Origin: a virus | Strand: one strand, 5' to 3' | DNA: 47,651 nucleotides | Virus record (IMG/VR): IMGVR_UViG_3300046674_000223 | Coordinates: 1-47,651 of that record | Shown: piece by piece, positions 12,442 through 22,746 of the stretch | Layout of the letters: the number at the start of each line of letters is the position of its first letter | Position numbering within the stretch: position 1 is the stretch's first letter | Made by a program: the position numbers and the translations under genes | The notes under the pieces: generated by a model | Database searches by the model: none | Seen by the model: only the letters and a program-made list of their open reading frames with translations | What the model was told of the DNA's origin: nothing

Positions 12442-13239
12442 TTAGGTGAGGTCGCGCCAGGTGATGCCGGTGGAGGACAGCGTCCCGCTGGAGTTGAACA
12501 GGGAGCCGCTGGTGCCGACCGGGTCCGAGCTGTCCCGGGTGTGCCAGGCGATGCGCTCCAGCCACGGCCGGGACTGCGCCCCCTCCCAGATCCCCAGGAT
12601 GAAGTCGTTGACCTGCCCGCGGCTGTACCGGTTGGGGGTGGTGGCCGTGGCCTCGAAGTCGTGCACGCACGTCTCGGTCACCCAGACCGGCTTGCCGAAC
12701 TTGGTGTAGAGCTCATCGACCTTGCGCAGCCAGGTCCCCACGTCCGGCTGCTGGTAGATGTGGGTGGCGACGAAGTTGACCTCGAAGTCCCGCTCCCAGG
12801 ACTGCTTGGTCAGATCCAGCGCCTTCTGCGCCCCCATGAACTGGTCCAGCCAGATCCGCACCGTGGAGACGGTGGCGGGGGAGCCCTTGCGCAGCCCGAA
12901 GCCGGCATCCTGGATGTACTGCCAGACGTTCAGCACCTCCAGCGGCGTCATCTTCACCGATCCGTCGGAGGAGTTCACCCAGTCGGGCTCGTTCGGGCCG
13001 AGGATGGCCGTGACGGTCTTGGGCGATTCCGCCTTCAGCGCCTTGATGTCGGCCGCAAACGTCTCCAGCCGGTCGGGGTTGTCCGAATAGAGCATCGGGA
13101 CGAACTCGGCGCTGATCTTGTCCGGGGTGCCGTAGAGCCGCTTCTGGCCCCAGTTGTACCACCAGTCGGGATTGAGCGAGTTGATCCGGGCTACGTTCGC
13201 GGCGCTGTCGCTGGCGTAGCCGATGCCTTTCAGTGTCAC
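12442..13239 (-). CDS. Asl1/GH128-like glycosyl hydrolase
   Basis: 265 residues, GTG start. The sequence follows the GH128 / Asl1-like TIM-barrel pattern: KGIGY at the start, NWGQ at 29-32, FVPMLYS at 46-52, GPNEPD with Glu84 as candidate acid/base, NFVATHIYQ at 155-163, VTETC with Glu189 as candidate nucleophile, and WHT near the end. GH128 enzymes cleave beta-1,3-glucans, so a role against host or extracellular polysaccharide is likely, but the substrate is inference. It has no signal peptide. It is the last gene of the cassette at 12.4-15.8 kb. Confidence 0.85.
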   Translation of the reverse strand: MTLKGIGYASDSAANVARINSLNPDWWYNWGQKRLYGTPDKISAEFVPMLYSDNPDRLETFAADIKALKAESPKTVTAILGPNEPDWVNSSDGSVKMTPLEVLNVWQYIQDAGFGLRKGSPATVSTVRIWLDQFMGAQKALDLTKQSWERDFEVNFVATHIYQQPDVGTWLRKVDELYTKFGKPVWVTETCVHDFEATATTPNRYSRGQVNDFILGIWEGAQSRPWLERIAWHTRDSSDPVGTSGSLFNSSGTLSSTGITWRDLT

Positions 13240-13958: not shown

Positions 13959-15473
13959 CTAGGGGTACTTGGGCAAAACGGTGCGGATGTTGGAGGTCAT
14001 CATTCCGGTGACGCCGAGCGCCAGCGCCCGGTCCCGCATGGCGGTGGTGTGGATTTCCCACATGATGACCTTCTTGCCGAGGCTGTCCGCCAGCGCCACC
14101 ACCCCGGAGATGTAGGCGTCGGAGGCGGCATGGTTCACGCCGATCCAGTCCACGTCCGACTTCGCCACCAGGGTCTGCCAGTCCGCGTGCGCCGGGTCAT
14201 CCTGGAGCAGGTAGCCCCAGGTGGTGAAGCCAGCGGTCTTGGCCCCGGTGAAGCCGGAGACGATGGGCGCCTTCCAGACGATCCGGTTGGCGATGTCCGG
14301 GTAGGTCTTGATCAGCGCGATCAGGTCCGCCTGCCACGCGCCGCCGGCCTTGGGCTCGATGAACAGCACATGGTTGGAGGCGTAGGCCGCGAGCACCTCG
14401 GTGAGCCGGGCGACGGGCACCCGGTCCTGGGTCGGATTGTCGGTCAGCCCGCCGGTGGTGGTCAGCGCATCGACCTGCGCGGCGGTCGCGGCGCTGAACG
14501 CCAGGTTGGTCCCGGTCATCCGCGACAGGTTGGTGTCATGGTGGCAGAAGATGACATTGTCGGTGGTGACGTTGACCGACACCTCCAGCGCCTTCATGCC
14601 GTAGTTGACCGCGTTCCTGAACGCCCGCATCGTATGCTCGGGCCAGTTGTCCATCGAGCCGCGGTGCGCGATGTAGAACGGGGCGGTTGCGAGCAGGTCC
14701 GCGATCCGGTAGTTCCCGACGGCGGGCTGGGACTGCGCCAGCGCCACCTCGGCGGTGCCGTTCCACAGCTTCGCGGTCAGCGGCACCTCGACCCCGCCGA
14801 CCCAGCGCGAGAGCCCGCCGGTGACGGGGTTGGGCGCAACCGGGATGCCGAGCTGGACGGCCCAGCCGTTGGAGGCCTGCGTGTTCGGATAGGTGATGGT
14901 GACCGACGGGGTGGCCCCACCGGCGGCAGAAAGCACGGAGCCGACGGCGATGGTCTCGATCTGGGTGGTGCCGTTCTGGGCGACGAAGAACCACGGGGTG
15001 GCGTTCGTCATCGAGGAGATGTTCGCCTCGGTCGCGGAGGTGCGCTCGGTGGAGATCACCAGCGCCAGCGTGTTCGCCGCAACGGTGATCGGGTCCGCGA
15101 TGTTGTTGACCGTCGCGCCGGAGTTGGCCCGGTAGCGGCCGTCGGCGGGGATGACCCAGCCGGTGTCGGCCGCGCCGCGCACCCACATCAGCGCGATCTT
15201 CCCGGAGGTGGTGGCCGCGCCGAAGGTGAAGGTGTAGCCGGTGTCCCCGGCGAGGCGCTTCCTGGTGAACACGGCGGTGTTCAGCGTGCCGGTGTTCTTC
15301 ATGTTGTACAGGGCCGTCCACCCCGCCGGGACAGCGAGCACCTGGCCCTGGCCCGTGACGACGACGGCGACGAGCCAGTCCCCGGCGGCGATGGTGCCGT
15401 CCGGGGTCAGGGTGTAGCCGAAGGTGCCGGTGACAAACTCCGCCTGCGCGTGCCCGACGAGGGTGACGGCCAT
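13959..15473 (-). CDS. Tail protein with C-terminal glycerophosphodiester phosphodiesterase domain
   Basis: 504 residues; start at MAVTLVGHAQ, because upstream codons shadow the previous gene. Residues 1-215 are a beta-rich fibre-like part. From about 266 a GDPD domain is clear: YIAHRGS (270-272 HRG), WPEHT, ALEVSV, CHHDTNLSRMTG, LFIEPKAGG and DWIGVNH. GDPD enzymes hydrolyse glycerophosphodiesters, so cleavage of wall teichoic acid or other glycerol-phosphate polymers during adsorption is a reasonable inference. Confidence 0.88.
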   Translation of the reverse strand: MAVTLVGHAQAEFVTGTFGYTLTPDGTIAAGDWLVAVVVTGQGQVLAVPAGWTALYNMKNTGTLNTAVFTRKRLAGDTGYTFTFGAATTSGKIALMWVRGAADTGWVIPADGRYRANSGATVNNIADPITVAANTLALVISTERTSATEANISSMTNATPWFFVAQNGTTQIETIAVGSVLSAAGGATPSVTITYPNTQASNGWAVQLGIPVAPNPVTGGLSRWVGGVEVPLTAKLWNGTAEVALAQSQPAVGNYRIADLLATAPFYIAHRGSMDNWPEHTMRAFRNAVNYGMKALEVSVNVTTDNVIFCHHDTNLSRMTGTNLAFSAATAAQVDALTTTGGLTDNPTQDRVPVARLTEVLAAYASNHVLFIEPKAGGAWQADLIALIKTYPDIANRIVWKAPIVSGFTGAKTAGFTTWGYLLQDDPAHADWQTLVAKSDVDWIGVNHAASDAYISGVVALADSLGKKVIMWEIHTTAMRDRALALGVTGMMTSNIRTVLPKYP

Positions 15474-15474
15474 C

Positions 15475-15771
15475 TTAGGTGGTCCTGAAAATGACGGTGC
15501 CGGCCGGGGTGTTGGCCGGGACCGGGTCCTGCGGGCCCAGCACCAGGGTGGAGGCGCCGACCTTGCCGTCCACATAGGACTTGGCGCTGTTCAGCGCCGT
15601 GGTGGCCTTGGTCTGCGCGTCCGCGCCCGCGGCAGTGAGTGCGGCGTCGGCCTTGGTCTGTGCCGTGGTGGCGGCGGCGTTCAGGGTTTCGGTGTCGCGG
15701 GAAGTAACGGCGTCGATCAGTTTCTGGCCCCACACATCCCCTGCCGGGACTGTGGGAAAGGGTGTTGCCAT
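15475..15771 (-). CDS. Small coiled-coil protein preceding the GDPD tail protein
   Basis: 98 residues, ATG at 15771 with AAAGG six bases upstream. Begins MATPFPTVPAGDVWGQKLID, then an Ala/Thr/Lys helical stretch (TTAQTKADAALTAAGADAQ) and ends VPANTPAGTVIFRTT. The helical centre resembles the linker of the large minor tail protein (TKADDAFGDAQTALTNAG), so it may be a trimerising neck for the fibre encoded next. Its stop lies 2 bases from the next start. Confidence 0.75.
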   Translation of the reverse strand: MATPFPTVPAGDVWGQKLIDAVTSRDTETLNAAATTAQTKADAALTAAGADAQTKATTALNSAKSYVDGKVGASTLVLGPQDPVPANTPAGTVIFRTT

Positions 15772-20155: not shown

Positions 20156-22606
20156 TTAGTGTCCCTTCATTGTGGTGATCAGATTGGTCTTGAGGTCTGC
20201 AAACCGCTGGGAGCGGATGCTGGCCCTGATTGCGTTTACCGTTTGCAGGCGTTCCGTCAGCGTAACCGATGCGGAAGGGGGAATTGCACCCGCCGCGACC
20301 AGTGATACCTGACGGGTTCCATCCATGGCGAACCGGGCGCGCGGGACAGGGAAGCCCTGCACGTTGACCGCGTGGGCCGCCACCAGCTCCATCGAGTCCG
20401 ATCCGCGGTAGCGCACACCGCGCCAGTCACCGCTGGGACCGGCGGCGAACAGCTCGTGGATCTGCTGCTCGGTGGCCCAGGGCCGGATGCGGCCGGAGAA
20501 CCAGACGCCGTGCGCGTCCTCGCCCACCGTGATGTCGGCGACGGCGGAGGCGACGTTGTCGTAGTGCGCGATGGCGGCACGGACCCCGAGCTTGCCGTCG
20601 GCATGGCCGCCGCCGACGGTCAGCTGGCCCACCGCGACCGGTCCGGCGTCGGTAAAGACCTGCCCGGTGAGGAAGTAGGCGTAGTCCGTCATCGAGGGCG
20701 GGACGGTGGTGCACACCTCGTAGGCGATGTGGCAGGCATCCCAGATGCCGAGGTGGCCGAAGATGTGCCCATCCTCCCCGCGGGTGACCGGGGTCGGTTC
20801 CTCCAGCATCGGATTGCGGAAGTAGTCGGCGCTGATCGTGGGCGCCGCGGAGGCCACCAGCGAGAAGGCCGGGGCCGCGGCCGGCGCCGTCTCCCCGGGC
20901 CAGTCCGGGATCTCCACCATCGCCCCGGTGGGCATCGGCTCATTGGCGAAGTCCTCCCAGGTGCCGTTGCGCACGAATGCCTCGGCGAACGCCGGGATCG
21001 CGCAGAGGGTGGCGGCGGAGATCCGGCCCTTGGTGAACTGGATCGACTCGGCCCCGCCCTCCTCGGCGGCCTGGACCATCTCGCCCTCGGCGGCGTCGAG
21101 GTCCACGGAGACCCCGCGCCACATCTTCTTGTCCACCAGGTCATAGGCCCGGTTCGCGTCCTCGGTGTTGTCCCAGACGCCGGAGGCCTTGATCAGCCCG
21201 CCGTCACGGTAGACGCTGTCGATGCGGGCGACGACGACGGAGCCGTCATGGCCCTGCCCGTCGGCGAACATCGCCTTGATCGGCAGCGGCAGGTCCCGGG
21301 TGGTCAGCATCCGCTCGGCGAACTGGCGCTTGTCCCCGGAAGGGGAGCCTTCGGGGGCGAGCACGCCATGCCAGGGCCGGAGGTTCTCGCCTTCGGGGGC
21401 GCTGAGGATGGGGTCGGCAGGGGCGGCGGGGGCCTCAGCGGCAGGCGCGGGAGCAGCGGGCTTCGCATCCTCCACGGCAGCTGCGACCGCCTCGGGGGCG
21501 GGGGCGGTATCGGACACAGGGGTTCCTCCCAGGGGGTAGATGGCGGTGCGGTCCTCGCCGAACCAGAGGGCGAGACGGTCGAAGGTGATGGCCTCCCCGG
21601 CGTAGTCCGCGAGGCGCGGGGTCTCCGGGTAGCCGAGGGTGACGTGGGGGATCCAGTTCGGGAACTGCTCCACCGCGTCGTAGGCGGCCAGCAGCGTGTT
21701 CTGCTCCAGCAGCCCGGAGCGGATGGCGCCGAGGTTGGCACCGTCGATCAGCACCACATCGGCCTTGTTCGGGCCCAGCACCGCGGAGCCGTTGACGGCG
21801 TCGGTGATCGGGGTGACCTGCCCGTGGGTGATGAAGTTCTCCAGCCCGGCGGCCAGTGCCTTCTGGTCCAGCGCTGCGATGTCGCCGAAGAACAGCAGGG
21901 TGCAGTGCGCCCCGTCGGCCTCGGAGGAGGCGGCAGCGACCGGATCGGCTTCGGCCGGCAGCGCCACGATGCACGCGCTGGTGAACACCTGCTCCGGGTT
22001 CGCGGCGGCGGTGAGGGTGGCGCCGGTGAAGTCCCCGACCATGGTGGGCCGGACGACGCAGCGGCAGTTGATCCAGTTCGACGGATCACCCACCGGCTGG
22101 CCGGGATAGAGCACCTTCTCCCCGCCGACGGAGAACTCCTGGCCGGAGGGTACGGTCTGCCCGGCGGCGGCGGCGTGGGCGCTGCGGACGTCGGCGTCGG
22201 CCATGGTGACCCACTCCAGCCCGACCTCGGCGGAGGTGTCGGCGGTGGCCGCGGCCTCCATCGCGGCGTTGTGGCTCATCGTGGCCACCCAGCCCGTGAC
22301 GGTGTTCAGCTGGTGCTCCGGGTTCGGCGCCACCTTGGTCTGTTTCAGCGCCTCACCCAGCTCGTGCGCGAAGGCGTCCCGCAGATCGTCCATCACCTGG
22401 CTCCAGGCGTCGATCTCCGCCGTGGCCATCTGGGTGAAGAGATCCTTGGCGGCGTTGACGATCTGGTACTCCCAGCTCGGCAGCCCGATCCGGCCGAGGG
22501 CCTCCTTCACGGCCGGGCGCAGCGCCGCGTCCGCATCGGCGAGCACCTTCTTCCGGGCCGCGGCGAAGTCCTCGGTGGATGCGGCGAAGCTCTCGGTGCG
22601 GATCAT
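20156..22606 (-). CDS. MuF-like / 2H phosphoesterase / capsid maturation protease fusion
   Basis: 816 residues from ATG at 22606, which overlaps the previous stop as ATGA. Residues 1-190 are a MuF-type head morphogenesis domain ending ADADVRSAHAAAAGQ and NWINCRCVVRP. Residues about 210-360 carry two H-x-T motifs, HCTLLFFGD (234) and HVTLGYP (321), the signature of 2H phosphoesterases (2'-5' RNA ligase-like). After a Pro/Ala linker, residues about 400-600 resemble a capsid protease (LPIKAMFADGQGHDGSVVV, RGVSVDLDAAEGE). The last 200 residues are a further beta-rich domain. MuF-protease fusions are known; the intervening 2H domain is notable. Confidence 0.88.
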   Translation of the reverse strand: MIRTESFAASTEDFAAARKKVLADADAALRPAVKEALGRIGLPSWEYQIVNAAKDLFTQMATAEIDAWSQVMDDLRDAFAHELGEALKQTKVAPNPEHQLNTVTGWVATMSHNAAMEAAATADTSAEVGLEWVTMADADVRSAHAAAAGQTVPSGQEFSVGGEKVLYPGQPVGDPSNWINCRCVVRPTMVGDFTGATLTAAANPEQVFTSACIVALPAEADPVAAASSEADGAHCTLLFFGDIAALDQKALAAGLENFITHGQVTPITDAVNGSAVLGPNKADVVLIDGANLGAIRSGLLEQNTLLAAYDAVEQFPNWIPHVTLGYPETPRLADYAGEAITFDRLALWFGEDRTAIYPLGGTPVSDTAPAPEAVAAAVEDAKPAAPAPAAEAPAAPADPILSAPEGENLRPWHGVLAPEGSPSGDKRQFAERMLTTRDLPLPIKAMFADGQGHDGSVVVARIDSVYRDGGLIKASGVWDNTEDANRAYDLVDKKMWRGVSVDLDAAEGEMVQAAEEGGAESIQFTKGRISAATLCAIPAFAEAFVRNGTWEDFANEPMPTGAMVEIPDWPGETAPAAAPAFSLVASAAPTISADYFRNPMLEEPTPVTRGEDGHIFGHLGIWDACHIAYEVCTTVPPSMTDYAYFLTGQVFTDAGPVAVGQLTVGGGHADGKLGVRAAIAHYDNVASAVADITVGEDAHGVWFSGRIRPWATEQQIHELFAAGPSGDWRGVRYRGSDSMELVAAHAVNVQGFPVPRARFAMDGTRQVSLVAAGAIPPSASVTLTERLQTVNAIRASIRSQRFADLKTNLITTMKGH

Positions 22607-22746
22607 TGGCGTGCCTTCTCTCCATGGCAGGCGTTGCAGACCCTCCACTGGCCCATCGGGGTAGAGGGGTGGGCATAGAAGGCGTGGAACCCCAGCAGGC
22701 AGGAAAGCGGGCGCTGCCACCACTTGGACTTGAACTGGTAGATCAT
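22603..22746 (-). CDS. Small Trp/Cys-rich protein (47 residues)
   Basis: Starts MIYQFKSKWWQRPLSCLLGF and contains WRVCNACHGEKARQ, a CxxCH zinc-ribbon-like or haem-like motif. ATG overlaps the portal stop and its own stop overlaps the MuF start, each as ATGA, with GGAGGAAGCAGC as the ribosome-binding site. Function unknown; the tight coupling supports it as a real gene. Confidence 0.8.
   Translation of the reverse strand: MIYQFKSKWWQRPLSCLLGFHAFYAHPSTPMGQWRVCNACHGEKARQ

Follow-up and report, generated by a model that had tools for sequence, protein, structure and literature searches.

The stretch of DNA analysed here (hereafter the window) is a 47.7-kb virus record from IMG/VR, possibly a partial genome. 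The sequenced phages closest to it infect Arthrobacter (e.g. SilentRX), and the window derives from a phage of a soil actinobacterium. The gene that concerns us lies on the minus strand, from an ATG at 22606 to a stop at 20156, and encodes a protein of 816 amino acids. It follows a portal gene (phrog_776), with the terminase gene further upstream, and precedes the major capsid gene. Its orthologue in SilentRX is annotated as a fusion of a capsid maturation protease with a MuF-like protein. A small open reading frame (22603-22746, minus strand), whose product of some 47 residues has a CxxC-type terminus, overlaps both the portal stop and the start of the fusion gene through ATGA overlaps; an annotated 144-bp gene occupies this position in the Arthrobacter phages Beagle and MellowYellow. 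Elsewhere on the minus strand, a protein of the tail region contains a glycerophosphodiester phosphodiesterase domain (13959-15575; PF03009, E 1.9e-23), and a glycosyl hydrolase catalytic core is encoded beside the tail genes (12442-13239; PF11790, E 3.4e-35). The fusion gene and its parts are as follows.

20156..22606, minus strand, stop codon included: MuF-2H-protease fusion gene; Arthrobacter phage orthologues are annotated 'capsid maturation protease and MuF-like fusion protein'
22034..22606, minus strand: MuF-type head-morphogenesis domain, residues 1-191 (PF04233, E 2.2e-5; phrog_2468; phrog_3517; conservation)
21989..22033, minus strand: disordered linker, residues 192-206 (pLDDT < 50 in the full-length model)
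21524..21988, minus strand: 2H phosphoesterase domain, residues 207-361 (profiles, motif conservation, predicted fold)
21899..21907, minus strand: first catalytic motif, H234-C-T236 (invariant among relatives)
21638..21646, minus strand: second catalytic motif, H321-V-T323 (invariant among relatives)
21389..21523, minus strand: disordered Ala/Pro-rich linker, residues 362-406 (pLDDT < 50)
20930..21388, minus strand: capsid (prohead) protease-like domain, residues 407-559 (phrog_3244; TIGR01543, E 0.003; fold matches; conservation)
20360..20842, minus strand: a further conserved C-terminal domain, residues 589-749 (conservation; match of phrog_18402, 'head maturation protease', over 587-790)

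The N-terminal part is matched by phrog_2468 (E 2.5e-20) and, below the cut-off of that profile, by PF04233, and conservation analysis found H144, C181 and C183 to be invariant in it. The protein thus combines the two features by which MuF proteins are recognized, the domain itself and a position beside the portal and terminase genes. Profile matches to the protease-like domain are weak (phrog_3244 and TIGR01543); its probable catalytic residues are S500, kept in 34 of 34 sequences, and H453, kept in 29 of 34. Matches of the predicted full-length structure include herpesvirus and phage T4 (gp21) capsid proteases, for which the segment responsible was not displayed, as well as LigT-type enzymes. 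Conservation is stricter in the domain at residues 589-749, where H668, H681, D683, S725-G-D727-W728-R729, C625-H626 and C632 are present in all 34 sequences and a Pfam scan gave no match. The phages TillyBobJoe and Baddon carry this second domain without the protease-like domain, and its role may be that of the main capsid protease or of an additional enzyme. We do not regard the two C-terminal domains as a duplicated protease (hhalign probability 2%). In the full-length model, confident modules are separated by disordered linkers, with further disordered stretches predicted at residues 560-588 and 750-782. With an overall pTM of 0.34, the model does not predict how the modules are arranged relative to one another. 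According to this model, the 2H domain is an independent module flanked by disordered linkers.

The initial annotation had placed a 2H domain between the MuF and capsid protease parts on the strength of two HxT motifs, and the profiles, the invariant motifs, the predicted fold and both flanks agree with it. The positions that it gave are exact: HCT occupies residues 234-236 and HVT residues 321-323, 87 residues apart. Both the window domain and its relatives carry the two H-x-T/S motifs that define the 2H superfamily. When searched in isolation, the window domain stays below the curated cut-off of PF13563 (2_5_RNA_ligase2), with 24.8 against 27 bits (E = 2.5e-5). The same profile matches 63 of 64 relatives from viral contigs at E <= 0.01 (best E 2.1e-11) and exceeds its cut-off in 4 of 15 phage records. 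The profile phrog_2659, named 'RNA ligase', also matches the domain (E 1.8e-10). Both motifs are invariant in 24/24 domains of a set drawn from phages and contigs, picked by similarity down to about 30% identity, and again in all 64 contig relatives. The latter were mostly fetched by two patterns, one of which includes the second motif and neither of which includes the first, and only the invariance of the first motif is therefore free of selection in that set. Judged from these sequences, the 2H assignment exceeds chance. Since the paired HxT motifs are invariant, activity appears to have been kept and the domain is probably a working enzyme. The LigT/ThpR profile TIGR02258 scores 12.4 bits against a cut-off of 65.7 (E 0.11). 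Direct membership of Acb1 was rejected for the window domain, which the Acb1 profile PF23474 does not match; that profile matches a few relatives weakly. The PADLOC defence-system library gave no match.

An AlphaFold2 model of the 2H domain was obtained with high confidence (pLDDT 94.3, pTM 0.89). In this model each half carries one motif, H234 opening a predicted strand at 235-242 and H321 one at 321-325. A fold lacking the bilobal 2H active site, which would have spoken against the proposed identity, was not seen as far as the fold matches can tell. The top Foldseek matches of the model are 2H enzymes throughout, comprising plant cyclic phosphodiesterase, E. coli LigT, a viral RNase L antagonist, a rotavirus VP3 domain, YjcG, Usb1, the penguinpox cGAMP phosphodiesterase and Acb1. 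Among PDB entries the plant cyclic phosphodiesterase ranks first (1jh6, E 1.1e-5), as one of many near-equal matches, and it is accompanied by LigT, the RNase L antagonist (4ye2, a 2',5'-phosphodiesterase) and Usb1, whereas the penguinpox enzyme (9ciw, E 3e-3) and Acb1 (7t27, E 0.014) are weaker. The predicted fold thus comes closest to enzymes acting on RNA and cyclic phosphates rather than to cGAMP nucleases. When the family profile is compared with PDB sequences, the penguinpox cGAMP phosphodiesterase comes out best (E 8e-5 to 2.7e-4), mostly through the region of the second motif. Acb1 aligns weakly (E 0.18), and in that weak profile alignment residue 315, which is always Phe or Tyr and hence aromatic in 64/64 relatives, falls on the inferred position of Acb1 F107, the base-stacking residue of that enzyme (PMC9117128). 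Taken together, sequence, conservation and predicted fold identify residues 207-361 as an intact 2H phosphoesterase domain.

Homologues of the domain were found by tblastn in 130 phage records with actinobacterial hosts (Gordonia, Microbacterium, Arthrobacter, Streptomyces, Rhodococcus and Curtobacterium). Two IMG/VR scans and the phage set together gave 78 distinct 2H domains, and these occur in several arrangements. In 45 of them the chain contains MuF, 2H and protease parts, the 2H domain following the protease in one case (L079). Four others lie in 2H-protease chains in which MuF was not detected; that of Kithara (L003) is complete and the others are perhaps cut by contig ends. One domain, in Baddon, follows the C-terminal domain, and the remaining 28 are separate from the MuF, protease and C-terminal domains. 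Free genes include a 212-residue 2H gene located between the portal and protease-type genes and overlapping the latter (L093), and one directly after the protease-type gene in the Gordonia phage TillyBobJoe. The phages RawrgerThat and Megabear encode related MuF-protease chains without 2H. When full-length homologues are compared in pairs, the 2H (0.51), MuF (0.49) and protease (0.49) parts have similar mean identities. In 14 of 15 records PF13563 has exactly one match, within the head module (Kithara falls below the threshold), and terminase, portal or capsid genes lie near the 2H domain in every neighbourhood read. These shuffled and split arrangements, together with the similar identities, indicate that the 2H domain is a shuffled yet maintained module of the head gene block.

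Several side observations concern the same gene blocks. A module of about 65-75 residues (phrog_6439) occupies varying positions in protease-type proteins (L093:5615-7972, L032:3944-5155, L009:3941-7312), and the 2H protein of L082 ends in an AKIxWG..RCR segment resembling it; this is possibly another shuffled virion module. In the Gordonia phage ScarletRaider (L007:3653-5742), a free 2H gene of the head cluster is directly followed by a gene for a VIP2-like ADP-ribosyltransferase. The 2H proteins Kithara gp23, Baddon gp18 and TillyBobJoe gp17 are annotated 'RNA ligase' in public records, a label probably inherited from the family name '2'-5' RNA ligase'; our data give no indication of ligase activity.

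What could a phosphoesterase be doing in a head protein? Known activities of 2H phosphoesterases include the cleavage of RNA ends and of nucleotides that serve as immune signals. As a tentative reading, which we consider quite possible, the 2H domain enters the procapsid as part of a head polyprotein, is delivered early and cleaves a nucleotide or a cyclic phosphate. Placed on flexible linkers within a capsid-assembly polyprotein, the domain would most likely reach the procapsid through the MuF part or by plain co-assembly with head proteins, and the fused protease may cut the linkers inside the procapsid. The domain would subsequently enter the host along with the DNA, or be set free at an early stage of infection. 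Judging from the fold, its two HxT motifs would allow it to cleave, independently of metal ions, a cyclic phosphate or a nucleotide with a 2',5' or 3',5' linkage, and the likeliest target would be a second-messenger nucleotide used in host defence, or else RNA of the host, in preference to RNA-repair ends. We infer delivery from the linkage to head proteins only; that the domain appears to stay within the head module while shifting position fits packaging. On the other hand, the partners fused to capsid proteases may leave the head, the Acb1 profile misses the window domain and the top fold matches are RNA and cyclic-phosphate enzymes. A literature search for virion proteomics or enzymology of these phages yielded nothing usable.

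The most serious rival to delivery is loss during capsid maturation. Capsid proteases and the parts fused to them are often degraded, self-digested or expelled at maturation, as in HK97-like phages. The 2H domain, fused directly to a capsid protease through what are predicted to be long disordered linkers, might thus work late in the producing cell or during assembly and then be cut off and lost, never being injected. In line with such a late role, some 2H genes stand alone beside capsid genes with no MuF part, and the domain can therefore do without being fused to a packaged component. However, it would be strange for an enzyme untied to the particle to be linked to the head module in such diverse ways, and the strictly conserved catalytic motifs favour enzymology over a structural role. 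We regard this alternative as somewhat unlikely.

A more specific version of delivery, which we judge unlikely as a whole, is that the protease frees the 2H enzyme in the head and that the enzyme, injected with the genome, destroys cyclic or 2'-5' oligonucleotide alarms (CBASS, type III CRISPR or similar) before phage protein synthesis. If true, it would mean that actinophage heads bring along an Acb1-like counter-defence in the form of a shuffled module. Counter-defence proteins of phages are usually thought of as products made after infection, and nucleotide-signalling defences respond quickly. If it is in the virion, a phosphodiesterase that forms part of a head protein would be present at time zero.

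Action on RNA is a further alternative that appears quite unlikely. The enzyme could be a Usb1-like RNase or could open the 2',3'-cyclic phosphates on tRNAs cut by defence nucleases, and the good predicted fold matches to LigT and Usb1 are compatible with both. In the part of their survey that deals with these domains, Iyer et al. (2017; PMC5512222) also favour RNase action, by analogy with fusions of PBECR RNases to MuF. However, RtcB, the PF09414 RNA ligase and Tpt1/KptA were all absent from the 15 carrier records searched, 14 of them complete genomes, a result that leaves out the PF09511 search, in which the positive control was silent. The lack of such partners in 14 complete carriers makes the RNA-repair form weak and argues against it. 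It agrees with a remark in the same part of the survey that no RNA ligase had ever been encountered alongside these 2H versions (PMC5512222). Hydrolysis of ADP-ribose 1''-2'' cyclic phosphate or of related NAD-derived molecules is highly improbable, for although the plant enzyme that is the best predicted fold match uses that substrate and ScarletRaider has a free 2H gene and then an ADP-ribosyltransferase gene in one head cluster, that enzyme is one of many near-equal matches, Tpt1/KptA is missing in carriers and the transferase neighbour was seen in one phage only.

The fusion protein can be compared with several known systems. The MuF-protease proteins of mycobacteriophage cluster B and others (e.g. 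RawrgerThat) have homologous MuF, protease and C-terminal domains in the same order, but without the 2H domain. LigT/ThpR and the plant cyclic phosphodiesterase share the predicted fold and are the top structural matches, whereas the window domain falls below the TIGR02258 cut-off and no RNA-repair partners were found in the carriers searched. The LigT-like cGAMP phosphodiesterase of avian poxviruses, for whose homologues cGAMP cleavage has been shown (PMC11410667), gives the closest sequence match of any solved structure, owing to the region around the second motif. It is, however, a free protein of a eukaryotic virus, and the match covers mainly the second half, with a TM-score of about 0.35-0.46. 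Acb1, the anti-CBASS 2H nuclease of phages T4 and FBB1, has the same HxT/HxT tetrad and 2H fold and a similar sequence around the second motif, including the aligned aromatic residue, but is a small free protein, whereas the window domain resides in a head protein and is unmatched by the Acb1 profile.

The closest precedent is the set of 2H fusions to MuF or portal domains described by Iyer and colleagues. RNase or anti-nucleotide-signal roles were suggested for them in section 20 of the earlier paper (Iyer et al., 2017; PMC5512222), and head packaging with injection against oligonucleotide signalling in section 3.4.5 of the later one (Iyer et al., 2022; PMC9503650). The delivery and counter-signalling idea put forward in the initial annotation had therefore already been published. 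As far as the text of these papers goes, figure 5B being outside the comparison, the two cases share the domain pair, the head context and the proposed delivery and counter-signalling role; in the present protein, in contrast, a single chain has the 2H domain flanked by MuF and a capsid protease. Our analysis adds specific refinements: it delimits the linkers within the MuF-2H-protease order, documents shuffled as well as split forms and finds no repair partners in the carriers searched. Moreover, the family occurs in sequenced, cultivable phages, whose annotations often call it 'RNA ligase' or just 'capsid maturation protease', and the published injection hypothesis is therefore directly testable in laboratory phages.
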